Assembly (NCBI GenBank): GCA_011109175.1
Contig: RDEW01000005.1
Coordinates: 248,001-312,000, forward strand
Direction of reading: 5' to 3'
DNA from: Dicyema japonicum
Lineage: Eukaryota > Dicyemida > Rhombozoa > Dicyemidae
Length of the DNA: 64,000 bases
The translations under genes were made by a program, and so were the position numbers. Each line of letters opens with the position of its first letter. Positions within the stretch are counted from its first letter, which is position 1. This document shows positions 2,626-44,799 of this stretch, piece by piece. Under the pieces are notes generated by a model, which was not told where the DNA came from, made no database searches, and was given only the letters and a program-made list of their open reading frames with translations.

Positions 2626-5575
2626 TAGTATTATTATTATTATAAGAACTTATCGCTATGTAATAGTACTTGACAAAGCGTGTGCGACACGAGTTAGCAA
2701 ATCACTGGTTAGTTTCATCCACTTCCTCCTATTCAAAGCCGCAGTGCGCAACCAGTCAAGATCCTCTCCACTTGTAAGATGCCGTCCCATTTCTTTGAGG
2801 TCCTCGTCGAGAACGACTGCCAGTGTCGTCCTTGGGCGACCACGGAAACGGGGGGCCTCCAACATGAAGTAATCCTCCATGGCTACGTTCGCGGGCATCT
2901 AGGTCCAGTCGCAGAATATGGCCGAAAAGCCTCCATCGTGTATCCAGAATCTCATTAGAAATTTCTGAGGTCTTCGTCTTCTTATAAAGAAGATTAGATG
3001 ACATCCTCGTATCACTTCTATCGAACATCATATGCTGTAGTTGGTCTCTATGAAACGCATTAAGCCTCTTCAGTTCATTTCTTGAGCAGGCCCAGGTACC
3101 AGCGTTATACAGTAGTATAGGTTTCACTAGCGAGTTGTATAATCGAGTTTTTGTTATAATGTCAAGGCCCTTTTTGTGAAGCCAGGTGTTCTTCAGTCTT
3201 GAGAGGGCAGTTTGTGCTAGGGTTTTCCTTCTTGTAATTTCTTCATAGTCTCCTAGGAGGGAGCTAAACTTTTTGCACTCGCGCCAGTACTCCTCCGTCC
3301 TTGTTTCTTCTCTCTTGAGTTCAGTTACCTTAGTCTTGTCCGGATTTACTGTTAGGAACCATTCGGCTAGTCTTCCAGGCACTTCTTCCATCAAGCAGGA
3401 AAGCGGTATTTTGTCGTTTGAAATAAAGTCTACGTCGTCAGCATACGCAATAATGTTTGTTTTTTCACCCATTTCGGTTTTGACTCCCGTAAAGCAGCTT
3501 CAAGTATATGACAAAAAGTATAGGTGATAATGGGTCTCCCTGTGGAGTGCAACAGTCGTCTCAAATCGGCGAGACAAGGCTCCCTCGACTCTTACAGTGA
3601 GCCAAGTATCAGCTAGGAGGGTGGTGGCCATTCTGACAGTGGAAGCGTCTAGGAAACTTTCCAAAACCAGTATTAGCCTCCGTCTGTCGACAGAGTCGAA
3701 GGCCCTCGAAATGTCGATTCCGATTAGATCTTTTGAACGGCCGCAGATCTCCATTTGTGGACCACAAAACATCGGAAGTAGATCTTCCTTTTCGGAATCC
3801 GCTGTGGTATAGCGACAGAAAAGTATCTAGGCGTCCTTCCATCCTTTGTAGTGTTATGTTGGCCAGAAATTTCCGAAGTGAATTCATTAATATGACTGGA
3901 CGGAGGTTCTCCACCTTAGATCTTGGTTTATTCGCCTTCTGTACAGGTATCAAGATACCCTCTCTCAGGGTCAGCGTGTGACCATAATAGTACATTTCAT
4001 TCAGGATCCAGCTTTTGGGTTCCATATTTGAAGAATTCACCACCGAGTCCGTCGGGGCCAGGAGTCTGTTGTTTTTCAACTTGGAACTGCAAGTTCAACT
4101 TCATATGGTGTGATTTCTTCGTACAATTTTCTTCGTTCTAGATGATAGTGTCGTTCTTGGATTGAAAAGTTTTCCAAAGTGGCCAGCTATAATTTCCGCC
4201 ACTTCCCTTTGGTCCACAATCTGCGTTCTTTGTCATCTCTTATCATTATCGGTTGATGGGGTCTCTCTTTTTATCTTTTAACAGCCTCGTAGAATTTAGC
4301 GTTGACCTTGAGAGATTCTATCTTCTTTGAATCTGGTCCAGTGCTATATTTCTGTTATGCTGGCGTATAGTTTTTCTTTCTAACCGCAATTTTGATTTTA
4401 CGTTCAAATCGTCAGTATTTTGATATAGCATCAATATGGTCTTCTGTTTATTTGGAAGGTCCTTCACCGTGTAAATTTCATTGTGCGAAGGGATTTTTCA
4501 TTTTTTTTCAATAGATGCAGATTGGCTCCTCTATGTATTGAGTCCTTTACAAAATCCCAGGATTTTCCGGGCGGCAAATCAATATGGATATTTTCTAGCT
4601 CTTCATCCAGATATTCTTTGAATGATAGGGCCCCTTCTGATTGACTTATTAAGATTCCAAGTTATAACGTCTAGAATTGGGTTCTGTGGTTTCAATGTTC
4701 TTCCATTTCATTCTTTGTATACCATAAATCTCTTTAGAGAAAGTCTAGCAATAACCATTTTGTGGTCGCTGTGATAATCGATCCACCATAAGCTCGTGCA
4801 TCAAGTATAACCCTCGATCTTTTTGCCTGCATATGATATAGTCGATCTGGTTGTACATATTTATCACTCGTCCTTCGGGATTTGTTCTGTGTCCCGACCA
4901 CGTAGATTTATGTCTGGCTGGATGCATGAAGGCTGTATTGCATAAAAATAGGTTGTTCGTTTGACAGAAGTTAGCTAGTAGAGTTCCCGGGAGATTTTTT
5001 TCTCCCTACCATGCCTTCCCATGAATGTCTCATCGGTCGTAACCTGGGTGGTAGCTTTCGCATTTAGGTCTCCTGATCATTAGTAATGTTGAGAGAGCAT
5101 ACTTGGAGAAGACGGCAGAAAGACTGGTGTAAAAGTCATCAATCTCCTCAGGGTTTTTATTAAGCCATCCACTGTGAGGGGCGTACACGTTTATTATAGT
5201 TAGATATTTCTTCGACGGGTTGAGGTCATTCAGTTTCAATTGCAACACCCCGATTCTATCATTCACACTGTAATATCGGTAGACTCTCTTGGATAGATCA
5301 TTCCTGACGGCAAATCCTAGCCCATAGTGCTTGTTTCCACCTGGAAGAAGATTAGTCGAAAGTTCCCATGTTGTTCTTCGATCCCGTTGATTAGTTTGGT
5401 CTCCTGAAGGCAGGCGATTGAAATCTTGTATTTTGAAAGATCCTCGACCAGTTCCTTCCGTTTCCAAACGCTAGAGAGTCTCCTGACGTTAAACATGAGA
5501 AGGGAGAAGTCCAATGGCTTGATGCTGTGTTTTCCAGACATTGAGTTCAAGAGCCACGTCACCAATTCAACCAAA
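2626..5575 (-). mobile_element. Near full-length LINE with APE-type endonuclease and RT, frameshifted (family I)
   Basis: Read on the minus strand. The endonuclease starts near 5574 with LLMFNVRRLSSVW and ACLQETK, followed by NVYAPHSGWLNKNPEE and NQIDYIICR. RT follows: RSKVENLRPVILMNSL, HSGFRKGRSTSDVLW, DISRAFDSVDRRRL, then YADDVDFIS at about 3,430. A long C-terminal region follows with VKPILLYNAGTWACS and DTRWRLFGHILRLD. The frame breaks several times, so the copy is dead. The 3' end carries an ATA/TAA simple repeat at about 2,626-2,641, a tail it shares with the copy at 49,517-50,189. Microsatellite tails and a single EN-RT reading frame suggest an RTE-like clade, but the clade was not tested. 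The 3' end converges on AIP, about 65 bp from its stop. Confidence 0.85.
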
Positions 5576-7213
5576 AATTAATTTAGTAATTTTAGTTTAT
5601 TTTTTACTCCCTGTCTCTTCAAGTGAAGGAAACAGGTTTTTAACAGAAAAGTAACTACCAAAAGCGTACGCTCACAGAGATCCCTTAGATATATCTGGTG
5701 TGGCGCAGAAGTTGAATGGAGACCGGATAAGAGATGGCCCGTTTACAAGATAGAAGGCACAGCGACGAAGCCTGTGCTTCAGAATCACTTTTCACGAGGA
5801 CCTTCAGTGTGATACTTCCACTCCTACAATGGGGATACAGTATATCGCTTGATGGAATTGAAGTCTGAAATCTTTCGCATATCTTGGACCACCAGGACTC
5901 ACGAGAATGTGACGCATCTCTAGGATCGACCTGTTTTGGTGGCTCGTTTCCTAACGGTCGCTACCCTTCTACATGTTAATAATTTTAATACTAATAATTT
6001 TACTTTTTAGGTAATACGGCCTCGGGAGACAGCAAAGCCCTAGTTTTTTAGCAACGACACACTAAAATTTGTAGCAATGGTCAGAACAGCTCGTAAGTGT
6101 CAAAAGCGAAGAAATGGTTTTTCTAAATATTTTTCTCAGATTTTGAATTGTAACTGTAAATTGGTTAATTGAGTAAGATTTAGATTTCGACATCGCTTTA
6201 TTCCATGAAATGTTTACTTCACTCAATAATGGAAGAAAGTCGTTGTCTTCCTCCTGGCAGTGAGTATGGTTGGGGTTACAGGATAAATCGAAAACCCGAA
6301 GTTCTGTTCAAAAGAAGGAAATGTCGAAGTATCCGGTTTTAAATCCTGTCCGGGTAAGATTAAAGAACAGTCAGAAGCAGTAGATGTTCCACCCTCACTA
6401 TAAATAAACGGTCTTCAAGTTTTCAGTTGCATAAATTTTTCAAAGAGAGCGGGAGTCCAAGTCAGAGAAAAAATTTTCAAGAAGAGCAGTACCTTGGTTA
6501 GAACAGGTGATTCGTAAATCTGAATTTTTTACTTTAAAATATCTGTAGCGAATATGGGAAAGGGATCAGTATAGTTCCCTTCCTAAGATAGTTTCAGACA
6601 AGCTAAGCAACGGAAGACTAGAGTCATGTATTGTGGTCTGAAAACTGAATGCAAAAGTGATGATTTGATTGTAAATAGCTTTTGATCTTTCAATACCTGT
6701 GATCTGAGTTCGATGAAGGAATTTGAGTCTACTTCATCGGTGCAAGGATGGGAAGAGACATAGTACGTCCAGGAACCGAAGACAGTGCATTCAAGTGAGA
6801 TTGTACAGACGTGCAATCACAATGAAAATGATTGGTGGAGTGTGGAGGGCAAAATCAGTGATAATTGTTAACCCACAGTTTAATAATATTTGAGTGAAAA
6901 AAGAAGGATATCCAAAAGAAGTCCCTGAGAATACTGGAGAGGGATGAGTTTACGTCTTATTTCAACAATCAGTTTTTTCGTATGTTGAGAAAATAAGATA
7001 TATTGACCAAACACAACTCCAAGAATCTTGGACAATATGCATAGTTTCATCGAGCATATTTCCAACGGACAAAGAGTATCTCAGGGAGTAACAAAGTAAC
7101 CTATCTCTGCAAGAGAGGGGAATGGCTGAGTAGGTGATCATTCAGTTTTTCGAACTTTGAACTTTTTTGTTTAAATTGTTCGATCGTAATCAATTGCGAA
7201 AATTTAAAGAACA
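5576..7213. other. Intergenic; one weak small-gene candidate at about 6,231-6,512 (+)
   Basis: No recognised gene. At about 6,231 an ATG opens a short basic frame (MEESRCLPPG...) interrupted by a good candidate mini-intron of about 22 nt with a GTGAGT donor and ACAG acceptor. A second open stretch, rich in Ser, Arg and Lys, runs to a TAG near 6,512. I could not join these confidently into one product and recognise no family. The rest is AT-rich, without repeats that I can match elsewhere in the window. Confidence 0.25.
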
Positions 7214-7303
7214 TACAGTCAAACCTCTTGAATTCGCTGCTTTTTGAATCCGTAGATTTTTTGACCGGTTCTAAAATCGGCGGATTCGAGGGGGTTTACT
7301 GTA
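7214..7303. mobile_element. Tiny inverted-repeat element (MITE), pogo/Tigger-like ends
   Basis: The left end reads TACAGTCAAACCTCTTGAAT. The right end is its imperfect reverse complement, TACAGTAAACCCCCTCGAAT on the other strand. Only about 40 bp lie between the arms. A TA at each edge fits the TA target preference of Tc1/mariner/pogo transposases. It has no coding capacity, so it would need a transposase in trans. Confidence 0.6.
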
Positions 7304-8292
7304 TTTTTAAAAAACTACAAGTGACGGGGATTCTAATAAGTCTTCCACCATCTTCGAAAATGTAATGTAAGTTTTGCCTCGATTGAACAGGCTATTTCGC
7401 CAATATCTAAATTCCCACATAAAATTTAAATTTTAAAACCGAAAATATCAATGATGATTGGATTTCGTTCAAAATAAATAATTTTTATAAACGCATATCA
7501 CTTAGGAATGATAGAAAACAGCCAATGGGATGTCCATCTTTCCGTTTGAAACGGAAGAATCAGGTTCTCGGAAGTCACATGGAAGAATTCCTTTGACAAG
7601 CAACATTCGCTAGAGCGTATCCAAAACCTGTTCGACCGATACATAAACCGAAATGTTGAAAAAATATACTGACTTATGTGATTGAGTGATATTTATTCCT
7701 CTCATTGTTGAGACTTTTGGTGCCATTGAAATCTCAATGCTAAAATTTATGAATCAACTTGAGAGACAGATTTTTGCGCGTTTTAGTAATCTTGTGACCC
7801 CCACTGGGTATTCAAGCGAGTTTCGCCCGCAATGTTGAGGCGGAATAAGGGTTTGAGTTATTCTGTCGATAATAAAATTACTTTCATCAATTTTAAACGT
7901 GAAAATAAAAAAATCATATTTTTTGCTATTTTTAAATTTTCTATTTTCCGATTGTCATTTATTATCGGAGAACACATAAAAAAGTCAATTAAGGTTCCCT
8001 TGTGCCGCACCAGTCACCTTTTGTACCAGTATCATCCCAGGTCCCCTCTTTTCGCAAGTTCTCTTAGTTCATAAGATCTTTGGCTTTACTTTTCCACCGA
8101 TCTTTCTACCCGAGTGCCAAATTTTTATCTTTTTGATAGGACCAGAGACAAGAATTCTTCGGCTGAGAACATCTTCCACATCCCAAGAGCGATCCGAAAA
8201 TCTAATATCGTCTCCACATATCATGATTAATGTTCGTGATATTAAAAAGGATAATCATGTTTTTAAATCATACAAAATAAAAAATTAGAAAT
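7304..8292. other. Intergenic; no gene seen
   Basis: AT-rich sequence between the small inverted-repeat element and the EXOSC9 stop codon. Open frames here are short, lysine/isoleucine-rich and without family features. I see no repeat shared with the rest of the window. Confidence 0.45.
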
Positions 8293-9237
8293 TCAAATCT
8301 CTTCAACATTGAGATCAACTCTCTTCCATTTTTCACCCTCATCCCCTTTAACGTCTTCTACAATTTCCTCAGTGACAACTTCACTGACTGGATCACAAGC
8401 AGGGGGTTCCTCCCTACCATTCCAGAACAAATATGGCTCTCCCATTAGAGACTGGCCACCATTGTGCTGATTCAACACATCTCCAATTTCTGAGAAAGAA
8501 GAGTAGACAAACCGATAGATTTCTCCACGAGACTTGCCAGCTGAAGTGACGGGGGCAGACTCCCGTCGATGTGGCAGCCACATACTTCCCCCAATTTATT
8601 AGTAGCAATAAAGAGTCTGCCCAGACATAGCTCCTCCTCGCAAGTGGTAGGGTCCATCAGAAACACATCCCCTAATAAAAGACCAGTTATACCCGTTAAA
8701 TACGAATGTTGTGAAAAAGGGCATATGGATGACAGGCAGCGGGTGTCCAGAGTGAACTGAGAAGTCGACATACTCACCGGTAGCGGACAAATGGGGCCTT
8801 TTATAAAGACGAACGGCGGTCAGGACGGCCAAGTGGGCAATATCAAGAATATTCCCACCATTGCAGATAATGTTGATACGAATGTTAATGTTCCAGACCT
8901 ATAGTGAGCAAGATGACAACTTTTTCCCCAGAAATATAGCAAAGTGATTCTAAATCGATACAGTCGCTAATACAAGTCTCCAATAGTTTAGAGATCAGTG
9001 GATCTGCAACGTGCAATGATACAATTCCCATATTGTGCTTGAATGGGGCCACCAATTCAGCCGACACTGTAACGAGCAACCTGATTGATTAAATGAAATA
9101 TACATTGTTTCTCCTGCCTTAACCTTGACAGTACTACCATTTATCCATATGTATAGTTCCCTAAATTGATTTAATCCACGCCCGTCAGTTCGACTACGAT
9201 TACAGATGAGTTTCAATATTAACTCACGTGAAAGCAT
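8293..9237 (-). CDS. EXOSC9: Exosome complex component RRP45 (EXOSC9), 5 exons
   Basis: Exons on the minus strand are 9237-9104, 9080-8921, 8898-8693, 8671-8513 and 8489-8293. The introns are 23, 22, 21 and 23 nt, all GT-AG. The product is about 284 residues with an RNase PH-like fold. Matching blocks are RTDGRGLNQFREL near the start, TVSAELVAPF, CIDLESLCYISGEKVW, then NGGNILDIAHLAVLTAVRLY, PLPVIHMPF and MDPTTCEEELCLGRLFIATN. RRP45 is a catalytically inert subunit of the six-member ring of the RNA exosome, which degrades and trims RNA in nucleus and cytosol. The tail is acidic and shorter than in vertebrates. One oddity: exon 3 to exon 4 (8693/8671) is out by one base with canonical sites, suggesting a 1-nt indel, a sequence error or an unusual site. 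A further in-frame 21-nt GTGAGT...CAG stretch at about 8,780-8,760 could be an optional intron, but the unspliced version fits the family better. Confidence 0.88.
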
Positions 9238-9739
9238 TGCTATTTAAATTAATTAATTTAAATTTATTTATTTGTATGATGTTTGAAGAAAAGTTATTAA
9301 TTAATAAAACAGTTATTTGCTCAATAATTAAAAAAATATAATTCCAATACATCTCCAAATTGGTGCATCTAACGAATCTACTTGCCGATCTTTTTCCCCC
9401 AATGCTTGACCACACTTCAATCGAAAACAACGGCTCCGGTTTCATCGGTCTGTGTGGTCATGAAACAAGTCGTTTCTTCCATTTAAGACTAGAAGCCTCA
9501 AATATACGTAAATTGGAAAAAACCCACCCCTCTTCAAATCTTAATGAAAGATGATCGTCGTCGATACATGAAAGCAGCGGGTACTCTGGAGGAACATAAG
9601 AAATTCCTCTCGATACTTTTGAGGTGTACCGGGATCACTTAATTAGTTGGTTTACTCTTTCTTTCTTGGGGTTATTAAATAAATAATACATCTCAACACA
9701 ACTACAATCACTAATAAATGATAGGACTACAAAATATCT
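9238..9739. other. Spacer upstream of EXOSC9; weak small + strand gene candidate
   Basis: The first 100 bp are AT-rich and include the likely EXOSC9 promoter. On the + strand an ATG at about 9,402 opens a frame of about 50 codons. A 43-nt GT-AG stretch would join it to a downstream frame (DRRRYMKAAGTLEEHKKFL) ending near 9,641. I do not recognise the product. If real, the two genes would share a divergent promoter. Confidence 0.25.
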
Positions 9740-10560: not shown

Positions 10561-13506
10561 CTCTGGCTTGCTAACTTCATCAATGGAAAAAATGCCCGGA
10601 TGGGGCCAAATCATTGAGTAAGGAAAGGATGTATTCGCCGCGACTGCCGGCTAATTGTGACCGAAGCCAGAGTAGATGTTTGCCATTTAGGTCGCCGCAT
10701 AATACCAGATCTTTCAGTTTTTTTTAATGTAACGAATTTTATTAAACAATAGAAGTCAGGTAGTTGCCGCCCTCACTGCGTGGCTGTTCCCTCTCAAAAT
10801 TGCGAGCAAATTCGCTCAAACAGCCAGCGGCGTTCACGGAGATCCCCAGTGCATGACGTGATCCGGTTTCCAAGACGTCCGAAAAACTCGAGTGTAGAGG
10901 GGGAGTAGGATCCGGAAGTCTCCATAGCAAGGGGAACAAATTTGACATCGTCGGGAAGGTCGACGTATTTAACGAGTTTGGCCTTCTCCGCTTTTACGGA
11001 TGCTGAACAGGCCCTTGTAGCACTCTCGTGAAGATTTTTCTGGGCGAACGTGTCTGTACATGTCACATTCCAAACCAGTGGTTTCCCGGCCTCAAATGGA
11101 AATATGGTCATCCCGTCCGGTCGTTTCCCGTCCCTTCTGCATAACCCGACCGGTTCAAGAATGGCCGAGTATCCAGCAGCATCCATAGCTCGCCTGACAA
11201 TTTCATTCAGAGCCTTGTGTCTTGGGGATCTGCCAGCGCTCCTCCTGCAGGCGAGAGGGTGCAGGCCATAGCAGTCTATCAGGATGCCACATCGGCACGG
11301 GTGAGGTACACATACTTTTAGTCCCAGCCGCAGAGAGATACCAGTTCTAACGCATTCATCATCCAGAAAAGTGCCCAAAGCTCCATTGGGGATGGCGTTT
11401 AGCCAAGCTCCGCTCTCAGGGGAAGCCCCGAAAGCAAACAAGCGCGTCGGTGCTGATTGGCAGATTCAGTAGGAGTCCAAATGATTTCCAGCATAATAAG
11501 TTGTCCAGGTTTCGCTGGCGATCTTGGGAAGGAGGCAGGGGGAGGTTGGTGGCATTCCAGGCTTCTCGTGCGTGGATTATCTCTTGGTCAGTTGAGAATT
11601 CGGGTGGGGAGTGTAGAATCCTCCTGACCAAAGGTTCGCAGGCCGTGAGTGATGATAAATGAGCGGGAAGTGAGACGTCCAAAGTTCGACGGATTCCAAG
11701 ACCCCCGAATCTAACTGGGAGTGTAGCCTGCATCCATGTATCATCGTCGAATCGGACATTAAATATTTGCTCCGTCGAGCTGAGGAGAGACAAATCAAAA
11801 TTCTCGAGCAGCTCCAGTTGAGAATAATATGGAGCTGTCCTTAGTAGATAGGAGATTCTCTGGATGTTGAGACTTCTTTTCAATAGGAATAGTGCTGTGT
11901 GCAAGTCCAGCAGCTGTAATCTTTCCAGCGAATCGCATAGGAGTCGTTTTTTGTCAAGGAGGACATGCTTCATCGCATTACTAGTGATCGGGGATCCAAG
12001 AAAAATCAATTCATTTTCAGGGGTCGAAATCCCACCGGGAAACAAGGAGTAAAATTTTTGAACAATTGAAGAGAAGTCATCGTCAGCAAGACCACAGTTT
12101 GTTATTTCACATTTCGTTATATTCAACTGAAGACCCACCTCGGACAGCGCGGGGTGAGTACTTCTAAGTCCTGGAAGACCGTTTCCGGGGGACCTCCTAA
12201 GACAGCGTCATCGAAGTACCAGATGTCGAGTGGGCATCTAGAGAGCTTCGTGATCCTCTCAATGCCGAGGGAGAACAGCAGTGGTCCGAGGGGGTCGCCC
12301 TGTTGAACACCTGAGGACGATGGAACTATGAAATCCCCGTGCAATAGTGATGAAGGTTTTCCGTATGAATAATTGACCAGTTCAAATATGTACGGACATC
12401 TTTCCTTGCAGGCCTCCAGAATGCAGTCTCTTCTTAAGCTGTTAAAAGCGTTCTTGATGTCCAGTTTTACCATAATGTGCCTTTTAAAGTCTTGAATGCT
12501 GCTGTTCCTGAATCTTCTGACGGAGTGAACGGCTGCCTCACATCCAAGACGAACTCCGACTTGACTGGGAAGTAAGGATTTTGACAAGATTGACATAGAA
12601 AATCTCGAAGCAATCTTGGCTGCTAGTCTCCTGAAGGTGAATCCGACCGCGATCGGACGGATTCCACCTCCATTCTTGTCGACTGTAATCAGACTAGCCG
12701 AAAACAAGATATGACGTATCAAATCAGGCAAATGTCCGGATAATATCCTGTTCATAAGAGAAGTGAGAGAGTATGAAAGACGACTTGCTTGGTCTCCAAT
12801 AGTCGGTGAAATAAGGTCTTTAAGATGGCCGGGCCTTAATCCATCGAGACCTCCACAGCTACTTGGTGCAAAGTTCCATAACGCCGTGATGACATCCTCA
12901 GGTTACGTGGTCAAAGGGGTCACTTCTGAAGGGGGCGAGCAATGGCGTAGGTCATTCGGAGAGGGTGGATGTTTCCCCAATAGAGTCTTGTAAGAATCAA
13001 TGGTTGGGTTGCGTGGTCCATCTGAGAGTGAGAGGGCCTTCAATGCGGATCGGGTTCCTCCTTCAAGCAACTTCGATCGTACGATCTTTCTTAGGCGAAG
13101 AATCTCCGTTTCCCGAGTTGAACTCCGAGTCTCAGTTGAACGGATGCAGAAGACGTGAGGTCCGTAAAGTGAGTTTTATCCATAAATGCGCGGATGTTGT
13201 TCTTCATCTCAATCGAGAGAGACTCCTTCCCATTGCGATCTCTAGAGGAGCCAAGAGCGAAAGGAGCAAAATTAAACAAACGTATCCAGTCGTTTATAGA
13301 GTCGGAGCGGAGTGCATCGTCGATTGCTTTGGTTAAGGCTTCGGCAGCTAGGGGGCGGGCTGCTTTAGGGATCTTCACCGGGATACTCCTCGATAACCGG
13401 CGTTCATTGATAATTTTGAGCAGCGAATCTGGATCCAAATGGGAAAGGTCTGCCCCGGAGGTACATGCACTCGCGTGACCATTAGGAAACCCCGAACCAA
13501 TTCCAA

Positions 13507-16155: not shown

Positions 16156-17047
16156 ACGAGTTCCTGGTTCGACCAGGGCTTCCTGGATAATGTCTTCTGG
16201 ATACTGTACATGGATAAGGGTCCACTGCAAATCGTCAGGATCGGGATTAGTTAATTTGGTTTTGCCCTTGATCTTTGGAATAATTTTATTCTGAGAAATA
16301 AATTAAAATAAATAAAATATTATTTTATTAAACTTCCAAAGTTATAAATTAGTAATCAACTATATGACTGAAATGGCATTCCACATTACGATTTATATGA
16401 AAATGTGATCTTCGTCCTAAATAATGGCCGCTGGTCTCCTACAAGTAAAAAAGGGCGGGGTTAACAAACCAACCAACTAAATGAAATGTTATCACATAAG
16501 AGACTTCCAAACTCATATATATCTACGCTTTTTTTATCAATAACAATGAGATAACAAAAAATGTCTTGATACGCAAGGTTTCAGCTGTAAGAATCAGCCT
16601 TTAAAAGTAAAGTATTTTTCAGTGAGGCTCATCCCAAAGACAATAGTAGGTAAATAGTTAAAAATATTTTTATCATTAAAATGTTAGCTAAAATAAATGA
16701 AGGAAAATGATAGAAAGTGAGGTGTTATATTTCATGTTTAGAAGGGGTGAGAGTGTCTAGTCAAAGTTAATAAAACACATACTGTGAGTGTTGGAAGATA
16801 AAGGGCCAGATTTAAAATGTGTAGAAGATTTGGAAATCACTGAAGATAGAGTTTCACTATTAGTAACTTTCTTTTGATTCACTAAAGTAAATAAGAAAAA
16901 TGAACAATTTGAAGTCGGTTCTATATGGGAAGTTGAGAAAAAGTCAGTTTGAGGAAATAAATCGTCGACAAATTTATCTTATAATAGATGATTAAAATAT
17001 ACAATATTTTACAGAATGAGCAATTTGCAATCCTATTAATTGGTTTC

Positions 17048-20000
17048 TCAAACAGTTAATAGTGTATGAATAGTTAGGTATCTAAAAATAAGTATTATAG
17101 TACGGAATCGTATGATTTTTTAGATAAAGTTCCATAAATTGGGAAATGCTGGCAAATTTAATTGGAAGGTTATAGTTCTTGTCAATAAATTTAGAATTTG
17201 GTTCTTATAAAAAAATAAACAAAACCTTTATTAATTATTACTTCTCCAATTTCATCTTTCTCATCAGTATCTGATAAAGCTTTATAATCGATGTCAATTT
17301 CTATATCTTTAGGATTTTCAGAATAATCCCCAATGTCTAAAATATGTTTTTATTATTTACCTCTTGCTTTCTTAATTAAGTCTTCAGAGTCTATTTCATG
17401 AGTCAATTAAAATGTTTACCTATTAATTTATCACTGTCGATGTCGAAGAATTCTGTATCACCAATCAAAATTTCAACTTCTTTACTTGGAATCTTATCAT
17501 ACTCGTCAATATATTCTGCTTTTGGTTCTTAAAATCATAAATAACAAAACCTTTATTAATTATTACTTCTCCAATTTCATCTTTCTCATCAGTATCTGAT
17601 AAAGCTTTATAATCGATGTCAATTTCTATATCTTTAGGATTTTCAGAATAATCCCCAATGTCTAAAATATGTTTTTATTATTTACCTCTTTTTCTTAATT
17701 AAGTCTTCAGAGTCTATTTCATGAGTCAATTAAAATGTTTACCTATTAATTTATCACTGTCGATGTCGAAGAATTCTGTATCACCAATCAAAATTTCAAC
17801 TTCTTTACTTGGAATCTTATCATACTCGTCAATATATTCTGCTTTTGGTTCTTAAAATCATAAATAACAAAACCTTTATTAATTATTACTTCTCCAATTT
17901 CATCTTTCTCATCAGTATCTGATAAAGCTTTATAATCGATGTCAATTTCTATATCTTTAGGATTTTCAGAATAATCCCCAATGTCTAAAATATGTTTTTA
18001 TTATTTACCTCTTGCTTTCTTAATTAAGTCTTCAGAGTCTATTTCATGAGTCAATTAAAATGTTTACCTATTAATTTATCACTGTCGATGTCGAAGAATT
18101 CTGTATCACCAATCAAAATTTCAACTTCTTTACTTGGAATCTTATCATACTCGTCAATATATTCTGCTTTTGGTTCTTAAAATCATAAATAACAAAACCT
18201 TTATTAATTATTACTTCTCCAATTTCATCTTTCTCATCAGTATCTGATAAAGCTTTATAATCGATGTCAATTTCTATATCTTTAGGATTTTCAGAATAAT
18301 CCCCAATGTCTAAAATATGTTTTTATTATTTACCTCTTGCTTTCTTAATTAAGTCTTCAGAGTCTATTTCATGAGTCAATTAAAATGTTTACCTATTAAT
18401 TTATCACTGTCGATGTCGAAGAATTCTGTATCACCAATCAAAATTTCAACTTCTTTACTTGGAATCTTATCATACTCGTCAATATATTCTGCTTTTGGTT
18501 CTTAAAATCATAAATAACAAAACCTTTATTAATTATTACTTCTCCAATTTCATCTTTCTCATCAGTATCTGATAAAGCTTTATAATCGATGTCAATTTCT
18601 ATATCTTTAGGATTTTCAGAATAATCCCCAATGTCTAAAATATGTTTTTATTATTTACCTCTTGCTTTCTTAATTAAGTCTTCAGAGTCTATTTCATGAG
18701 TCAATTAAAATGTTTACCTATTAATTTATCACTGTCGATGTCGAAGAATTCTGTATCACCAATCAAAATTTCAACTTCTTTACTTGGAATCTTATCATAC
18801 TCGTCAATATATTCTGCTTTTGGTTCTTAAAATCATAAATAACAAAACCTTTATTAATTATTACTTCTCCAATTTCATCTTTCTCATCAGTATCTGATAA
18901 AGCTTTATAATCGATGTCAATTTCTATATCTTTAGGATTTTCAGAATAATCCCCAATGTCTAAAATATGTTTTTATTATTTACCTCTTGCTTTCTTAATT
19001 AAGTCTTCAGAGTCTATTTCATGAGTCAATTAAAATGTTTACCTATTAATTTATCACTGTCGATGTCGAAGAATTCTGTATCACCAATCAAAATTTCAAC
19101 TTCTTTACTTGGAATCTTATCATACTCGTCAATATATTCTGCTTTTGGTTCTTAAAATCATAAATAACAAAACCTTTATTAATTATTACTTCTCCAATTT
19201 CATCTTTCTCATCAGTATCTGATAAAGCTTTATAATCGATGTCAATTTCTATATCTTTAGGATTTTCAGAATAATCCCCAATGTCTAAAATATGTTTTTA
19301 TTATTTACCTCTTGCTTTCTTAATTAAGTCTTCAGAGTCTATTTCATGAGTCAATTAAAATGTTTACCTATTAATTTATCACTGTCGATGTCGAAGAATT
19401 CTGTATCACCAATCAAAATTTCAACTTCTTTACTTGGAATCTTATCATACTCGTCAATATATTCTGCTTTTGGTTCTTAAAATCATAAATAACAAAACCT
19501 TTATTAATTATTACTTCTCCAATTTCATCTTTCTCATCAGTATCTGATAAAGCTTTATAATCGATGTCAATTTCTATATCTTTAGGATTTTCAGAATAAT
19601 CCCCAATGTCTAAAATATGTTTTTATTATTTACCTCTTGCTTTCTTAATTAAGTCTTCAGAGTCTATTTCATGAGTCAATTAAAATGTTTACCTATTAAT
19701 TTATCACTGTCGATGTCGAAGAATTCTGTATCACCAATCAAAATTTCAACTTCTTTACTTGGAATCTTATCATACTCGTCAATATATTCTGCTTTTGGTT
19801 CTTAAAATCATAAATAACAAAACCTTTATTAATTATTACTTCTCCAATTTCATCTTTCTCATCAGTATCTGATAAAGCTTTATAATCGATGTCAATTTCT
19901 ATATCTTTAGGATTTTCAGAATAATCCCCAATGTCTAAAATATGTTTTTATTATTTACCTCTTGCTTTCTTAATTAAGTCTTCAGAGTCTATTTCATGAG

Positions 20001-23000
20001 TCAATTAAAATGTTTACCTATTAATTTATCACTGTCGATGTCGAAGAATTCTGTATCACCAATCAAAATTTCAACTTCTTTACTTGGAATCTTATCATAC
20101 TCGTCAATATATTCTGCTTTTGGTTCTTAAAATCATAAATAACAAAACCTTTATTAATTATTACTTCTCCAATTTCATCTTTCTCATCAGTATCTGATAA
20201 AGCTTTATAATCGATGTCAATTTCTATATCTTTAGGATTTTCAGAATAATCCCCAATGTCTAAAATATGTTTTTATTATTTACCTCTTGCTTTCTTAATT
20301 AAGTCTTCAGAGTCTATTTCATGAGTCAATTAAAATGTTTACCTATTAATTTATCACTGTCGATGTCGAAGAATTCTGTATCACCAATCAAAATTTCAAC
20401 TTCTTTACTTGGAATCTTATCATACTCGTCAATATATTCTGCTTTTGGTTCTTAAAATCATAAATAACAAAACCTTTATTAATTATTACTTCTCCAATTT
20501 CATCTTTCTCATCAGTATCTGATAAAGCTTTATAATCGATGTCAATTTCTATATCTTTAGGATTTTCAGAATAATCCCCAATGTCTAAAATATGTTTTTA
20601 TTATTTACCTCTTGCTTTCTTAATTAAGTCTTCAGAGTCTATTTCATGAGTCAATTAAAATGTTTACCTATTAATTTATCACTGTCGATGTCGAAGAATT
20701 CTGTATCACCAATCAAAATTTCAACTTCTTTACTTGGAATCTTATCATACTCGTCAATATATTCTGCTTTTGGTTCTTAAAATCATAAATAACAAAACCT
20801 TTATTAATTATTACTTCTCCAATTTCATCTTTCTCATCAGTATCTGATAAAGCTTTATAATCGATGTCAATTTCTATATCTTTAGGATTTTCAGAATAAT
20901 CCCCAATGTCTAAAATATGTTTTTATTATTTACCTCTTGCTTTCTTAATTAAGTCTTCAGAGTCTATTTCATGAGTCAATTAAAATGTTTACCTATTAAT
21001 TTATCACTGTCGATGTCGAAGAATTCTGTATCACCAATCAAAATTTCAACTTCTTTACTTGGAATCTTATCATACTCGTCAATATATTCTGCTTTTGGTT
21101 CTTAAAATCATAAATAACAAAACCTTTATTAATTATTACTTCTCCAATTTCATCTTTCTCATCAGTATCTGATAAAGCTTTATAATCGATGTCAATTTCT
21201 ATATCTTTAGGATTTTCAGAATAATCCCCAATGTCTAAAATATGTTTTTATTATTTACCTCTTGCTTTCTTAATTAAGTCTTCAGAGTCTATTTCATGAG
21301 TCAATTAAAATGTTTACCTATTAATTTATCACTGTCGATGTCGAAGAATTCTGTATCACCAATCAAAATTTCAACTTCTTTACTTGGAATCTTATCATAC
21401 TCGTCAATATATTCTGCTTTTGGTTCTTAAAATCATAAATAACAAAACCTTTATTAATTATTACTTCTCCAATTTCATCTTTCTCATCAGTATCTGATAA
21501 AGCTTTATAATCGATGTCAATTTCTATATCTTTAGGATTTTCAGAATAATCCCCAATGTCTAAAATATGTTTTTATTATTTACCTCTTGCTTTCTTAATT
21601 AAGTCTTCAGAGTCTATTTCATGAGTCAATTAAAATGTTTACCTATTAATTTATCACTGTCGATGTCGAAGAATTCTGTATCACCAATCAAAATTTCAAC
21701 TTCTTTACTTGGAATCTTATCATACTCGTCAATATATTCTGCTTTTGGTTCTTAAAATCATAAATAACAAAACCTTTATTAATTATTACTTCTCCAATTT
21801 CATCTTTCTCATCAGTATCTGATAAAGCTTTATAATCGATGTCAATTTCTATATCTTTAGGATTTTCAGAATAATCCCCAATGTCTAAAATATGTTTTTA
21901 TTATTTACCTCTTGCTTTCTTAATTAAGTCTTCAGAGTCTATTTCATGAGTCAATTAAAATGTTTACCTATTAATTTATCACTGTCGATGTCGAAGAATT
22001 CTGTATCACCAATCAAAATTTCAACTTCTTTACTTGGAATCTTATCATACTCGTCAATATATTCTGCTTTTGGTTCTTAAAATCATAAATAACAAAACCT
22101 TTATTAATTATTACTTCTCCAATTTCATCTTTCTCATCAGTATCTGATAAAGCTTTATAATCGATGTCAATTTCTATATCTTTAGGATTTTCAGAATAAT
22201 CCCCAATGTCTAAAATATGTTTTTATTATTTACCTCTTGCTTTCTTAATTAAGTCTTCAGAGTCTATTTCATGAGTCAATTAAAATGTTTACCTATTAAT
22301 TTATCACTGTCGATGTCGAAGAATTCTGTATCACCAATCAAAATTTCAACTTCTTTACTTGGAATCTTATCATACTCGTCAATATATTCTGCTTTTGGTT
22401 CTTAAAATCATAAATAACAAAACCTTTATTAATTATTACTTCTCCAATTTCATCTTTCTCATCAGTATCTGATAAAGCTTTATAATCGATGTCAATTTCT
22501 ATATCTTTAGGATTTTCAGAATAATCCCCAATGTCTAAAATATGTTTTTATTATTTACCTCTTGCTTTCTTAATTAAGTCTTCAGAGTCTATTTCATGAG
22601 TCAATTAAAATGTTTACCTATTAATTTATCACTGTCGATGTCGAAGAATTCTGTATCACCAATCAAAATTTCAACTTCTTTACTTGGAATCTTATCATAC
22701 TCGTCAATATATTCTGCTTTTGGTTCTTAAAATCATAAATAACAAAACCTTTATTAATTATTACTTCTCCAATTTCATCTTTCTCATCAGTATCTGATAA
22801 AGCTTTATAATCGATGTCAATTTCTATATCTTTAGGATTTTCAGAATAATCCCCAATGTCTAAAATATGTTTTTATTATTTACCTCTTGCTTTCTTAATT
22901 AAGTCTTCAGAGTCTATTTCATGAGTCAATTAAAATGTTTACCTATTAATTTATCACTGTCGATGTCGAAGAATTCTGTATCACCAATCAAAATTTCAAC

Positions 23001-26000
23001 TTCTTTACTTGGAATCTTATCATACTCGTCAATATATTCTGCTTTTGGTTCTTAAAATCATAAATAACAAAACCTTTATTAATTATTACTTCTCCAATTT
23101 CATCTTTCTCATCAGTATCTGATAAAGCTTTATAATCGATGTCAATTTCTATATCTTTAGGATTTTCAGAATAATCCCCAATGTCTAAAATATGTTTTTA
23201 TTATTTACCTCTTGCTTTCTTAATTAAGTCTTCAGAGTCTATTTCATGAGTCAATTAAAATGTTTACCTATTAATTTATCACTGTCGATGTCGAAGAATT
23301 CTGTATCACCAATCAAAATTTCAACTTCTTTACTTGGAATCTTATCATACTCGTCAATATATTCTGCTTTTGGTTCTTAAAATCATAAATAACAAAACCT
23401 TTATTAATTATTACTTCTCCAATTTCATCTTTCTCATCAGTATCTGATAAAGCTTTATAATCGATGTCAATTTCTATATCTTTAGGATTTTCAGAATAAT
23501 CCCCAATGTCTAAAATATGTTTTTATTATTTACCTCTTGCTTTCTTAATTAAGTCTTCAGAGTCTATTTCATGAGTCAATTAAAATGTTTACCTATTAAT
23601 TTATCACTGTCGATGTCGAAGAATTCTGTATCACCAATCAAAATTTCAACTTCTTTACTTGGAATCTTATCATACTCGTCAATATATTCTGCTTTTGGTT
23701 CTTAAAATCATAAATAACAAAACCTTTATTAATTATTACTTCTCCAATTTCATCTTTCTCATCAGTATCTGATAAAGCTTTATAATCGATGTCAATTTCT
23801 ATATCTTTAGGATTTTCAGAATAATCCCCAATGTCTAAAATATGTTTTTATTATTTACCTCTTGCTTTCTTAATTAAGTCTTCAGAGTCTATTTCATGAG
23901 TCAATTAAAATGTTTACCTATTAATTTATCACTGTCGATGTCGAAGAATTCTGTATCACCAATCAAAATTTCAACTTCTTTACTTGGAATCTTATCATAC
24001 TCGTCAATATATTCTGCTTTTGGTTCTTAAAATCATAAATAACAAAACCTTTATTAATTATTACTTCTCCAATTTCATCTTTCTCATCAATTTTATGATA
24101 AATGTAAATTTCTACATCTTTAGGATATTCATCATAATCTTCAATTAACATAGGAGGAATTTGTTTATCTCTTCTTTTTTCTATTAAGTCAACTTCCTCG
24201 TCGTAAATAAGTATTTCTATATCTTTAGTATTCTTCAATGGTTCTTTGAATTTTTCATTTTCTATTTTATGATTCACTAATTTATTTACCATTTATTTTT
24301 TCAATGACATTATCTGAGAATATTTCTATTAACATTAATTTTACGAATATTACTTGATTCGTATATATTTACTTCAATGTCTTTTAAAACTCTATCCTTT
24401 TCATAAATATTTTCCCATGACTAAATGTTAAATAAACGATCTTACAGCGCAAACAAGCAAATTTAATGCTAATTGATGTTCATCTTTTGCAAAATTTGGC
24501 AGATTTTTTTAATTTGTCCCTAAAAAATCAGAATAATTACTTTATCGCTAAAGTTCCCACTTAAAAATTCGTTATACATTTTAGTTTAATTATATCATGT
24601 AAAACTGATATTTCGTTGAGATGTGTCATTATTAGTTTAAAATATTTATATTTTCTTGTTTTCCGGTTTCAGCAGTTTTTAATTTATATTCAATCCGCGC
24701 AGTTTATCCTTGTTTTCTACATAATTATCATGATTATGCCTATTAGGTATTTGAAGTTTTCCAAAAATCTATCTTCATCGAATCGCTCAGTTTTATTTGA
24801 ATATCGAAATTTTCGACCTTGGAATCATATTACAATATACATTAATCTCTTCTAAATTCACATGTGATGACTTTGGTCGACTAATATCCTTCTCTCTGTT
24901 CCAATTTTTCTCTAGTTGATCAATGATTTTATTTTTTCTTCAATAATTTTCCTTATTTTCATTGCTCTCTTCGTTAGATTGTTTATTAGACTTAACTATC
25001 CGAAACGTCATAAGTATGATATCTTTTTCTTTTAGTCTTACATCTCGAAGACTTCCAGGGTTGTTTAACCTTTAATTTCACTAATCCACATGGGCTAACT
25101 TATCACTTAGGAGTAAAATAATGTCATTTTTCTTTAAATCTTCTTCATTAAGATCTTCATTTAACTTTTGTAACTTGAAATTGGTTTCCTTCTCTTTGGC
25201 TATTTGATCTTTTAGGTTTTCTATTAATAAATCTTTCTCATTTAGAGAATCCGACAAAGTTTTATTAGAAATATCGCATTCTTGATCGATAGCTTGAATT
25301 TCAACTCCACTTATTAGATTTTCGATGTTCGAAATGAGATCGCTCTTTAATAATGTACCATAGAGCTAACCTTGTCCTCAGTCACTTTTTGACTTTTTAT
25401 AAAATGCTCCAATTCATTTTTCTAGATTATAAAACCCAATACTATTTTTGAGCAGTGCAAGCAGTAGAACGATTTTGAGGACAAAATTTGAATCTGAAAT
25501 AAATATATAATTCAACAATATTTTGAAGGTATTTATTGTGGGATCTTGCCGATTCTAGCTCATTTAAAATTATGCTATATTTGTTTTCAAAATCATTATT
25601 AAAATTCTAATTTAATACTTCAACTATACCATAAACAGATCTTCCAGCAATGCTCTAATAGTTTTGTTCAACTCAAACATTTCTGTTGTAATCCAATATT
25701 TATTGTTTGCCAACTTATTTATATTACATAACAACTCATCCTCATTGCTGCTTTCAGATGCGTATAAGCCTGTTATTCAGATTTTACTCTTACATTTAAA
25801 ATCCTCAATGTGACTTAAAAAGGCATCAATTCTTTTTCTCAGTATGTTATTTTGGATTGTCATATCCACAAGAATCTTTATTTGCGAGCTTTTGGGTTTT
25901 TCCCAAAATAAATTTAGAGATGTTGGAGGACATAGTTCACCCAAGTTCATAAATTCAGAGACGACTTCTTTACCGTATTTATCGCAAACGTATAAAAACT

Positions 26001-26668
26001 TATCTTTTTTCGCTTCATTTTTGAGTTGGACTTCTTCATTAGCCGACTAAACTAAGATAACTAGGAATACAAAAATCAGCTTCTTCATTGCTTCGTTGTC
26101 CAAAAGCAGAATCTCGTTGTCAATTTGAGACCAATTCAAATCTGTTTCTAGCTCAACAATCTAAATGAACACACATTGAAACTTTTTTTTGTTGTTTTAG
26201 GCACGTGGTTTCGTATTTTTTTATGATAGTTCCGATCATTTGTTGCTGCATGTGATTATAACGGTTTATCAAGGGTTCTGTGAAAGAACCTATTTCCGAA
26301 ATATTTTGCTTTAAATTATTGACCCAATTACGTTGTCATGAAACAATTTTTTTATGTAATTTTCAAACCGATGACTGATGTCTGAATAATCCACATCTTC
26401 TTCATACTTCAATCCAATAATTTGTTCGATCATTTCTATGCACTCTGAGGCGATCTCATTCATTTTCATTCTAATTTAAAAATTTATAGAACCTCATTTC
26501 ATCACTTTTTATTTTTCTTCGGGCGAAATTCTCTGCATATATTTTTCTGGAATAAATATAATTATTTAGAAGCTCTTTGAAGTCTCTGTGAAGCTCGTCA
26601 AACTGGATTATTAAACTCTTTGATGCTTCATCGTAGATTTCCTCTGAATCGATGAGTGATCGCTGCAA
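17048..26668 (-). CDS. Coiled-coil protein with a 21-fold acidic 83-residue C-terminal repeat; multi-intron gene, probably decaying
   Basis: Read from about 26,668 downward. At least ten exons joined by 21-30 nt introns give a long helical, Glu/Lys/Leu/Ile-rich region: KSLIIQFDELHRDFKELLNN, NEIASECIEMIEQIIGLKY, LRKRIDAFLSHIEDFKC, LSDSLNEKDLLIENLKDQIA. Then come a diverged first repeat (about 24,270-24,026), 21 tandem repeats, and a short tail ending at the TGA at 17,048-17,050. The repeats are strongly acidic (about 28 D/E against 11 K/R per 83). I recognise no family and no enzyme motif; a structural or scaffold role would be a guess. The start codon is unresolved. Lesions relative to copy B or to the expected frame: 1-nt deletions near 25,017, 24,915 and 24,730, and a 2-nt deletion in the array unit at 17,528-17,850. 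Either the locus is a young pseudogene or these are sequence errors. Confidence 0.6.
17204..24025 (-). repeat. Tandem array of 21 units of 325 bp, each a three-exon coding cassette with three mini-introns
   Basis: Unit boundaries, taken at CTTAAAATCA on the + strand, fall at 17,851 and then every 325 bp to 24,026, giving 19 equal units. A 323-bp unit (17,528-17,850) and a slightly diverged 324-bp unit (17,204-17,527) precede them. I see no substitutions among the 19 units. On the minus strand each unit carries GT-AG introns of 29, 24 and 23 nt; what remains is 249 nt, or 83 codons: exon a (36 codons, from EPKAEYIDEYDKIPSKEVEI), exon b (10 codons, DSEDLIKKAR), exon c (37 codons, DIGDYSENPKDIEIDIDY to GEVIINK). 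All three introns are phase 1, so adding or losing a unit keeps the frame. Exons a and c look related to each other (Y-x3-P-x-K-[DE]-[VI]-E-I). Confidence 0.92.
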
Positions 26669-26939
26669 TATTAATAAAACTCATAGTTTTAATAAGTCCG
26701 AATAAACAGCAAATCATTAATTTTTAATAAAAAATAAAACTACTAAGAACCATTAATCGAATTGTCTCAATTTACGGCCTATTTTATTTTTATAACATTA
26801 ATTAGATCGTCAATTGAATTACTTTTTATTTTGTTATAAATTTTGACCACTTGATAATTATTCCTCCAGGGATGGAAGTGTCATGAATCCCGGAAAAAAA
26901 TCAGATGTTTAATTTCGCTGATGTCCATTCCGGCTAAAG

Positions 26940-41530: not shown

Positions 41531-41990
41531 TTCTCGAAAGTGAGGTGTTAGATAGTATTTCTTTCATTGATTTGGAAGCGGTCAGAGGTATGCTAATATC
41601 GAATTAATAATCCTACCGTCAGTGATTAAAGATGAACTTCTAAATTTTGATTGTTTTGATGACTTTGAGATAACAGACGATTGGGTTTGGCTACTAGTTT
41701 CTATCGTTTGATTCACTAAAGTATTTTTTATGAAAAATGAATAATTCGAAGTTGCGTCTAATTGGGAAGTTCGTCGGTTTCAAGAAACAAATCTTGGACA
41801 AATTTTATCTTAACTTAGTTGATCATGAATTTACAATATTTAAAAGAATGAGCTGTTTGCAATACTATTAACTGGCTTCTCAGGCAGTTAACGTGTTTAA
41901 ATAGTCCGGAATCTAAAATGCATTTTATAGTATACGGAATCGTGCGATTTATGCGATAATTTTCCATAAATTAAAAATCGCTCATAAATA

Positions 41991-44772
41991 TTAATATGGA
42001 ATCTTATAGTTCTTGTCGACCTCAATAATTTTTGCATTTGGCTCTAAAATTATAAAAATATGAAAACCATAATTCATTATTACTTCCCCAAATAAATCTT
42101 TCTCAGGGATATCTGATAATTTTTTATAATCGATGTCAATTTCTATATCTTTAGGATTTTCAGAATAATCCCCAATGTCTAAAATATGTTTTTATTATTT
42201 ACCTCTTGCTTTCTTAATTAAGTCTTCAGAGTCTATTTCATGAGTCAATTAAAATGTTTACCTATTAATTTATCACTGTCGATGTCGAAGAATTCTGTAT
42301 CACCAATCAAAATTTCAACTTCTTTACTTGGAATCTTATCATACTTGTCAATATATTCTCCTTTTGGTTCTTAAAATCATAAATAACAAAACCTTTATTA
42401 ATTATTACTTCTCCAATTTCATCTTTCCCATCAGTATCTGATAATGCTTTATAATCAATGTCAATTTCTACATCTTTAGGATATTCATCATAATCTTCAT
42501 CTAACATAGGAGGAATTTGTTTATCTCTTCTTTTTTCTATTAAGTCAACTTTTTCGTCGTAAATAAGTATTTCTATATCTTTAGTATTCTTCAATGTTCT
42601 TTGAATTTTTCATTTTCTATTTTACGATTCACTAATTTATTTACCATTTATTTTTTCAATAACATTATCTGAGAATATTTCTATTAACATTAATTTTACG
42701 AATATTACTTGATTCGTATATATTTACTTCAATGTCCTTTAAAACTCTATCCTCTCATAAATATTTTCCCATGACTAAATGTTGGATAAACGATCATATA
42801 TCGCAAGTAAGCAAATTTAGTGCTAATTGATGTTCATTTTTCTGCAAAATTTGGCAGATTTTTATAATTTGTCCCTAAAAAATATGAATAATTACTTTAT
42901 CGCTAAAGTCCCCATTCAAAATTTCGTTATACATTTTTTAGTTTAATTATATCATGGATAACTGATATTTCGTCGAGATGTTTCATTATTAAGTTTAAAA
43001 TATTTATATTTCCTTGTTTTTCTGTTTCAGAAGTATTTAAGTTTATATTCAATCCGCGCAGTTTATCCCCGTTTTCTGCAAAATTATCAATGATTATGCC
43101 TATTCGGTAATTGAAATTTTCCAAAAATCTATTTTCAACGGAATCAGTCACTTTACTTGAATATCGAAATTTTCGACCTTGGAATCATATTACAATATAC
43201 ATTAATCTTTTCTAAAATCACATGTGATGACTTTGGTCTGCTAATATCTTCTCTCTGTTCCAATTTTTTTCATAGTTGATCAATGATTTTATTATTTTCT
43301 TCAATAATTTTGTCCTTATTTTTATTGCACTCTTCGTTAGCTGTGTTTATTAGACTTTAATAACTATCCGAAACGTCATAAGTATCGATGTCTTTTTCTT
43401 TGATAGTCCTTACATCTGAAGACTGTCCGGGATCACTTAACCTTAAGTTAATTCAACCACGTGGACTAACTTATCACTTAGGAATAAAATAATGTCATTT
43501 TTCTTTGAATCTTCTTTATTAAGATCAGCATTTAGGGTTTGTAACTTTAAAATTGTTTCCTTCTTCATGGCTATTTGATCTTTCAGGTATTCAATTAATA
43601 AATCTTTCACATTTAGAGAATCCGACAAGTTTTATTAGAAATTATCTTTTTGTTGGTCGATGGCTTGAATTTTAACTTCACTTATCAGATTTTCAATGTT
43701 CAAAATGAGATCATGCTTTTTATAACGAACCAAAACTAACCTTTTCCGCATTATCTTGCTGACTTTCTACAAAATGCATCAATTCATTTTTCTATGTTAT
43801 ATAATCTAATACTATTTTCGAGCAGTGCAAGCAGTAGAACGATTTTGAGGACAAAATTTGAATCTGAAATAAATATATAATTCAACGATTTTTTGAAGGT
43901 ATTTATTGTGGGATCTTGCCGATTCGAGTTCATTTAGAATTATTCGATATTTATTCTCGAAGTCATAATTAAAATTCTAATTTACTACTACAACTATACC
44001 AGAAACTTTTCTTCAAACAGTACTCTAATAGTTTTGTTTAGCTCAAACATTTCTGTTGTAATCCAATATTTATTGTTGGCCATCACATTTATATTGCATA
44101 ACAACTCATCCTTGTGGGTGCTTTCGGAGGTACAAATGCCTGCTATTCAAATTTATACTTGTACATTTAAAGTCATCAATATGCCTTAAAAAGGCCTCGA
44201 TTCTTTTTCTCAGAAAGTCATTTTGGATTTTCATATCTATGAGAATTTTTAGTTGCGAGCTATTGGATTTTTCCCAAAATGAATTTAGAGATATCTGAGA
44301 ATGTAATTCTTCCAATGTCGTAAATTCTGATATAACTTCATAGTATTTCTGACTAACTGATGTAAACTCTTCTTTTTTCTCTTCATTTTTAAGTTGGACT
44401 TCTTCATTTGCTGACTAAACTAAGATAACTAGGAATACAAAAATCAGCTTCTTCATTGCTTCGTTGTCCAAAAGTAGAATCTCGTTGTCAATTTGAGACC
44501 AATTCAAATCCTTTTCTAGCTCAACAATCTAAATAAACACAAATTTATACTTTTTTTTCTGTTGTTTTAGGCACGTGGTTTCGTATTTTTTGATAATAGT
44601 TTCAATCATTTGTTGCTGTGTGTGATTATTAGTGATTAATTAAGTTTTTTGTGCTATAATCTTCTGAAATATTTTTCTTTAAATTATTGACCCAATTACG
44701 CTTTCGTGAAACACATGTTTAATGTAATTTTCAAATTGGCGACTGATGTCTGAATAATCACATCCTCTTCAT
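41991..44772 (-). pseudogene. 5'-truncated paralog of the 17-27 kb coiled-coil/repeat gene
   Basis: Exons match copy A one for one (SFWEKSNSSQLKILIDMKIQ, LRKRIEAFLRHIDDFKC, LIEYLKDQIAMKKETILKLQ), again with 21-30 nt introns. The repeat part has a first unit (42,594-42,385, DYDEYPKDVEIDIDYKALSD), one complete EPKGEYIDKYDK unit, and a last partial unit ending in a TAA at 41,991-41,993. Lesions: the first exons are absent, replaced by a dispersed repeat at about 44,780, and an in-frame TGA stands at 43,270-43,272 where copy A implies GAG. Copy B keeps frames that copy A has lost, so the two decayed independently. Confidence 0.7.
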
Positions 44773-44799
44773 ACTTCAATTGATCCAAAATGCTTGGTG

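Follow-up and report, generated by a model that had tools for sequence, protein, structure and literature searches.

A tandem array of 21 intron-bearing gene segments in Dicyema japonicum, probably produced by recent tandem growth in the 3'-terminal part of an orphan gene

The stretch of the Dicyema japonicum genome analysed here (contig RDEW01000005.1 of assembly GCA_011109175.1, forward-strand positions 248,001 to 312,000; 64,000 nt, referred to below as the window and numbered from its first base) carries on its minus strand a tandem array with a period of 325 bp, each unit of which contains three predicted mini-introns. The array lies downstream of the exons of an intron-rich gene, which we will refer to as gene A; a paralogue, B, is located in the same window. 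Units run on the minus strand from one 23-nt intron to the next and are numbered from the 5' side. The features of the locus and of its paralogue are the following:

17197..24089, minus strand: tandem array as reported by Tandem Repeats Finder (TRF), with period 325, 21.2 copies and 99% matches; the only such array reported
17874..24048, minus strand: 19 identical 325-bp units, 6175 bp with 0 substitutions
24026..24048, minus strand: 23-nt intron of the first unit, predicted GT-AG, one of 21
23889..23917, minus strand: 29-nt intron of the first unit, predicted GT-AG, one of 21
23835..23858, minus strand: 24-nt intron of the first unit, predicted GT-AG, one of 21
17551..17873, minus strand: unit 20, 323 bp, exon 2 short by 2 nt and frameshifted
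17226..17550, minus strand: unit 21, 325 bp, up to the terminal intron
17204..17225, minus strand: terminal 22-nt form of the 23-nt intron; the downstream exon begins EPNSKFIDKNYNLPIK... and has a stop at about 17081
24049..24240, minus strand: unit 0, an older diverged unit with 49% identical protein, a tail identical to the unit tail and an exonic counterpart of the 24-nt intron
24218..24383, minus strand: unit-like segment older than unit 0; its predicted 28-nt intron (24262-24289) is a homologue of the 29-nt intron
24480..25040, minus strand: frame-broken middle part, with 12 gaps in A against 1 in B
25085..26679, minus strand: 5' part of gene A, ten exons separated by nine predicted GT-AG introns (21-26 nt), without internal frame break
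41664..44780, minus strand: paralogue B, 84-88% identical to A, with a single unit and frame breaks of its own, 18 kb away
42068..42392, minus strand: the single 325-bp unit of B
42393..42546, minus strand: upstream exon-3-like copy in B, 325 bp ahead of the downstream copy and, with it, the proposed seed
42044..42067, minus strand: terminal 24-nt form of the 23-nt intron in B

Counted between 23-nt introns, the array comprises 21 units (17226-24048), and 19 of the 20 successive intervals from one such intron to the next are identical 325-mers, the other being 323 bp long. The intron sequences of 23, 24 and 29 nt occur 22 times each in the window, 21 times in the array and once in the paralogue (42.2-42.4 kb). 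An initial annotation of this DNA had described a strict 325-bp period with 19 units free of substitutions, which the identity of 17874-24048 bears out, and had read the whole as a 21-fold gene segment of near-perfect homogeneity with three mini-introns per unit, a description supported here with the introns as predictions. Because not one substitution occurs over the 6175 bp of the 19 units, the array is either very young relative to the split of A and B or constantly homogenised. No array with a period above 37 bp was reported by TRF elsewhere in the window. A sample of eight 10-kb stretches of the genome (80 kb, 5329 bases masked; TRF periods 30-500) gave TRF rows in three stretches, of which two held short repeats, of 33 and 43 bp, in two copies and the third (L055) mainly repeats of 93-99 bp and multiples thereof; no row in the sampled 80 kb combined a period of at least 300 bp with more than three copies. 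The imperfect tandem repeats of about 93 bp in L055 (C123:100001-110000) lie at about 5770-9354 with some 23 copies per row, and the 5329 masked bases belong to this stretch.

Once its three predicted introns are removed, the unit is 249 nt long, a multiple of three, and reads as a single open frame that continues into the next unit, unit 20 excepted. The encoded unit has 83 residues and a net charge of -17. When one unit was subjected to 1000 dinucleotide shuffles, with GT-AG introns of 20-31 nt allowed, 15 shuffles were readable without a stop, and 4 were so with no more than three introns per unit; under this intron rule, the real unit has no stop-free reading on its plus strand. Within a single unit an equally open alternative path exists, which keeps the 23-nt intron as coding and excises GTATGATAAGATTCCAAGTAAAG instead; it is disfavoured solely by comparison with the terminal copies. 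GT-AG introns of 29, 24 and 23 nt, an 83-codon frame joining the next unit and an acidic repeat had all been proposed in the initial annotation, and all reappear here, the introns and the frame as predictions. Its figure of about 63 splicing events is sound as arithmetic (21 x 3), every one of these events being predicted. The frame that it assigned to the units is open over 249 nt but fails in the 323-bp unit 20, which is frameshifted, and by our reading the spliced frame of the array terminates within that unit.

Introns this short are usual in the host, which belongs to the dicyemids, minute animals that parasitise octopus and squid. In the genome searched (64.67 Mb, 191 contigs), eight actin loci were compared with human actin by a splice-aware script, which predicted 26 introns. 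Twenty-three of these are 22-28 nt long, mostly at three positions common to the loci, and the remaining three (34, 17 and 17 nt) are in loci L023 and L013; one of the 23, a 25-nt intron in L017, is doubtful, as it would excise conserved codons. Introns of about 20-30 nt are therefore found in conserved nuclear genes of this dicyemid, and because the actin introns are mostly of 22-28 nt, the predicted introns of 23, 24 and 29 nt are of normal size for this genome, with 29 nt at the edge of the range. Published accounts give introns of 26.2 +/- 1.9 nt (n = 16) for the Dicyema genes Pax6, Zic and actin (PMC2222250), and a D. japonicum genome of 67.5 Mb with a GC content of 36.7% and a mean intron of 38.2 bp (PMC6736024). 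The Pax6, Zic and actin genes share the mini-introns of the array unit, whereas tandem exon repetition does not appear in the available part of the former account (PMC2222250).

In its predicted structure, the unit is composed of complete host-gene exons together with their introns, and paralogue B shows the same exon-intron set once. The 474-bp segment of B that includes its one unit has a dynamic-programming (DP) cost of 3 in the frame search, against a mean of 33.1 and a minimum of 24 among 30 shuffles. Within exon 3 the array unit changes allegiance between the two copies of B: unit positions 214-269 show 0 differences from the downstream copy and 11 from the upstream copy, and positions 270-324 show 14 and 2, respectively. 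This comparison shows the array unit to be a chimera of the two exon-3 copies of B, with the switch at a shared 9-bp tract, GATTATAAA. Among the matches listed, the unit and its flank were found in the genome at A and B only. Synonymous divergence (dS) between 16829-26413 and 41664-44780 drops from 0.41 in the 5' exons to 0.12 and then 0.04 on approaching the array, and this fall suggests gene conversion between the two paralogues in the neighbourhood of the repeat.

Upstream of the array, the region consisted of related units before the array arose. Unit 0 matches unit residues 15-83 with 49% identity (E 2e-12), and its DNA scores 71 against a maximum of 27 in 1000 shuffles, a score to which the identical tail contributes. 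The still older segment scores 34, again against a shuffle maximum of 27, with 0 of 1000 shuffles reaching its score, and its 28-nt intron resembles the 29-nt intron of the unit to a degree matched by 4 of 5000 shuffles. These comparisons show older related units, one with a putative homologous intron. The unit stretch that contains the 24-nt intron aligns with 67 nt of unit 0 (0 of 2000 shuffles as good, flanks included), and the counterpart of that intron in unit 0 is exonic; apparently one generation of units differs from the next by the gain or the loss of an intron.

From these data a mode of origin can be proposed, which is well supported. Unequal recombination, or slippage, would have taken place between two exon-3 copies 325 bp apart, since a join of downstream to upstream sequence is the expected mark of either process. 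The resulting duplication would have been joined inside an in-frame exon and would have carried along the three whole introns lying between the copies. The 249-nt spliced frame could survive in this way even though 325 is not a multiple of three, because the copies share a frame and the introns are whole. Further unequal exchange or slippage would then have brought the array to about 21 copies, and could also maintain the identity of its units. The sequence of the array derives from coding exons, but in the assembly frame breaks now separate it from the conserved exons of the gene. The outcome would be a nascent satellite made of exons and introns, with continued translation possible. We consider it probable that the array arose when the 3'-terminal part of an orphan gene rich in introns expanded in tandem, recently and in a runaway fashion, and that it is now more likely a decaying or optional acidic tail.

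The description of the gene as an orphan follows the outcome of homology searches. Protein searches with the 5' exons of gene A, with three array units and with an alignment of A, B and a distant paralogue (C, below) gave no match at E <= 0.001 among the 7994, 7996 and 7994 candidates sharing most words that were scored, beyond which relatives are possible. In Pfam, the array drew nine families at E <= 1, the best at E 0.0029 and all under their cut-offs, and the 5' exons of gene A and unit 0 drew 0 families at E <= 1. An exact scan with one 28-base piece of the unit found 0 occurrences in bacterial and archaeal contigs and 0 in viral contigs, and Rfam gave 0 matches in the window at gathering scores. 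Other parts of the window do match known families: an open frame at 47995-48489 matches the Sua5/YciO/YrdC family (PF01300, E 1.8e-32), and reverse-transcriptase fragments (PF00078) occur at 12123-12902, above the cut-off, and at 2756-3499 and 50726-51313, below it.

Searched against the genome, the gene A protein has two counterparts, B and a distant locus of contig C25. The initial match there (C25:32836-32976) is 38% over 47 residues at E 0.03; when extended, it reaches 33% identity over 152 aligned positions of gene A, with E 6e-17 as a single comparison. Downstream of the matching exons, at about 2777-3507 of L047, a stretch of this contig, are two perfect two-copy tandem duplications of 129 and 110 bp. 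These duplications were rejected as a form of the C-terminal repeat of gene A, as direct protein comparison gave E 24. Likewise, a sub-repeat between the two halves of the 83-residue unit found no support (E 0.87).

In gene A, over 25000-26683, the DP cost is 14 against 71.8 +/- 10.3 in 30 shuffles (minimum 52), and the opposite strand costs 82. Across 309 codons of seven exons, the divergence of A from B amounts to 0.41 at synonymous (dS) and 0.12 at nonsynonymous sites (dN), and because the dN/dS is 0.30, these exons were under purifying selection through most of their separate history; single-exon values range from 0 to 1.08, and B carries stops in one of the seven exons. Nearer to the array, the best path of the frame search, which allowed introns of 18-31 nt only, meets stops or frameshifts at about 24939, 24768, 24683, 24668 and 24508, five breaks before the array is reached, and the cost of 24100-25000 is 40, near chance (shuffles 54.0 +/- 10.6, minimum 39). 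Between 25040 and 24480, the alignment of A with B has 48 mismatches, and 12 of its 13 gaps fall in A (two-sided binomial p 0.003), compared with 114 mismatches and a single gap in each gene in the stretch 26160-25372. Read in the open frame of B, the middle stretch has a dN/dS of 1.36 (dS 0.12, 68 codons) and the stretch adjoining the array 1.18 (dS 0.04, 55 codons, about 7 substitutions), so that neither shows purifying selection relative to paralogue B. A reading of the array as an in-frame continuation of the gene is not supported, in view of the five breaks at 24.94-24.48 kb, the apparently unconstrained array side and the frameshift of unit 20. The same three observations weaken the estimate of about 1,740 encoded residues in the initial annotation, which stands as the product of 21 and 83. 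Either the 3' part of A has no coding role now, or the assembly contains short deletion errors there. Gap-to-mismatch ratios of other repeat pairs in the window span a range that includes the 13 to 48 seen here, and for this reason consensus errors are not required to explain it.

What the array is at present can be read in more than one way. The first possibility, to which we would give an even chance, is a neutral satellite: the 3' part of gene A would be dead, and the array would have grown as non-coding DNA while keeping the look of its coding ancestor. The frame breaks and the relaxed dN/dS on the array side are what such a history would leave, whereas the conserved 5' exons, the intact spliced frame in 20 of 21 units (which are not independent of one another) and, in the genome search, the confinement of the array to one locus, unlike a typical satellite, speak against it. 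The second, to which we give about one chance in three, is that the array is translated today as a giant acidic tail, whether this forms the C-terminus of gene A or has a start of its own, and that some 60 mini-introns are excised from its pre-mRNA. By arithmetic, the tail would measure 1,743 residues with 21 whole units, or about 1,660 with a start near 24150 and an end in unit 20. Consistent with translation are the openness of the unit and of about 450 nt upstream with ordinary introns, a spliced unit length that is a multiple of three, an old repeat region with a homologous intron, purifying selection on the 5' exons, and short gaps in A that are possibly consensus errors. It is opposed by the five best-path breaks between the conserved exons and the array, by an array-side dN/dS of 1.2-1.4 and by the frameshift in unit 20, and identical copies amount to one independent test of openness only. 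Both possibilities concern the present state of the array rather than its origin, and the probability given to each does not exclude the origin proposed above. That a few true units were multiplied or homogenised by the assembler or polisher is improbable: the perfect identity across 6175 bp and the short gaps clustered beside the array would fit such an artefact, but unit 20 and both array ends differ from the other units, the flanks are distinct, and an assembly of 191 contigs, six of those seen exceeding 1 Mb, was presumably made from long reads.

Several points weigh against a recent expansion that is now decaying or optional. In the chimera, position 289 of the array agrees with the downstream rather than the upstream copy, and position 272 with neither. 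The resemblance of the terminal 22- and 24-nt introns to the 23-nt intron is matched by roughly one shuffle in ten (482 and 501 of 5000, respectively), because of which their homology rests on the flanking exon. The frame on the array side is open from about 24508 as far as unit 20, and the dN/dS next to the array comes from only about 7 substitutions. Residual errors of the consensus could account for the gaps clustered in A at 24.48-25.04 kb (12:1), and A is then perhaps intact; a single intron longer than 31 nt, the limit of the frame search, may also span the broken part. Copy number is predicted from the assembly, as are splicing and expression.

The initial annotation knew of no multi-exon, intron-bearing cassette at such a copy number, and here it was wrong. 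The KIV-2 array of LPA grows by unequal exchange. Its 5.6-kb unit comprises a 4-kb intron together with two exons of 160 and 182 bp, and is present in 1 to more than 40 copies per allele (PMC6314250). The two arrays are alike in being in-gene tandem repeats of a multi-exon unit with introns, at high copy number and with nearly identical units. They differ in that LPA encodes a known protein, whereas the array described here has a 325-bp unit with three predicted introns of 23-29 nt, possible translation and no known fold. The triplicate region of nebulin, a muscle gene, in which eight exons occur three times (PMC9109913), is likewise a multi-exon cassette repeated inside one gene and prone to copy-number change. 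Compared with both, the array in D. japonicum is more compact, and its likely founding state lies next door. Like an LPA KIV-2-type array, it has units of whole host-gene exons and introns, in predicted structure, and a spliced length (249 nt, unit 20 excepted) that is a multiple of three; in this assembly, with introns of 18-31 nt, it is not in frame with the rest of its host gene. It would thus have arisen in the manner of LPA, but because the in-frame link to the gene is missing in the assembly, we do not class it as a functional coding array of that type. With satellite DNA it shares a long, homogeneous, head-to-tail arrangement with one fixed period. It differs in that, among the matches listed, there is one array and one single-unit paralogue rather than multiple genomic loci, and in that its unit is a spliceable open frame of which a single-copy relative persists. 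The array is, then, either an unusually compact member of the multi-exon coding-array kind or a satellite born from a gene.

In either case, a multi-exon protein repeat, or a satellite, has apparently been caught at birth. About 28 kb of sequence takes in the single-unit paralogue, the chimera join and the young, homogeneous array, and the path from two diverged exon copies to 21 cassettes can be traced per base. It seems rather unlikely, though consistent with the predicted structure, that the array is transcribed, with some 60 introns of 23-29 nt removed, to give an acidic tail of up to about 200 kDa whose length varies by 83-residue, three-exon cassettes, with introns gained or lost between generations of units, as would follow from the alignment of the 24-nt intron with exonic sequence in unit 0. 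If it is transcribed, the array would naturally put the recognition of mini-introns to a stress test, presenting introns of 23, 24 and 29 nt 21 times each with no sequence feature that prevents skipping between units.

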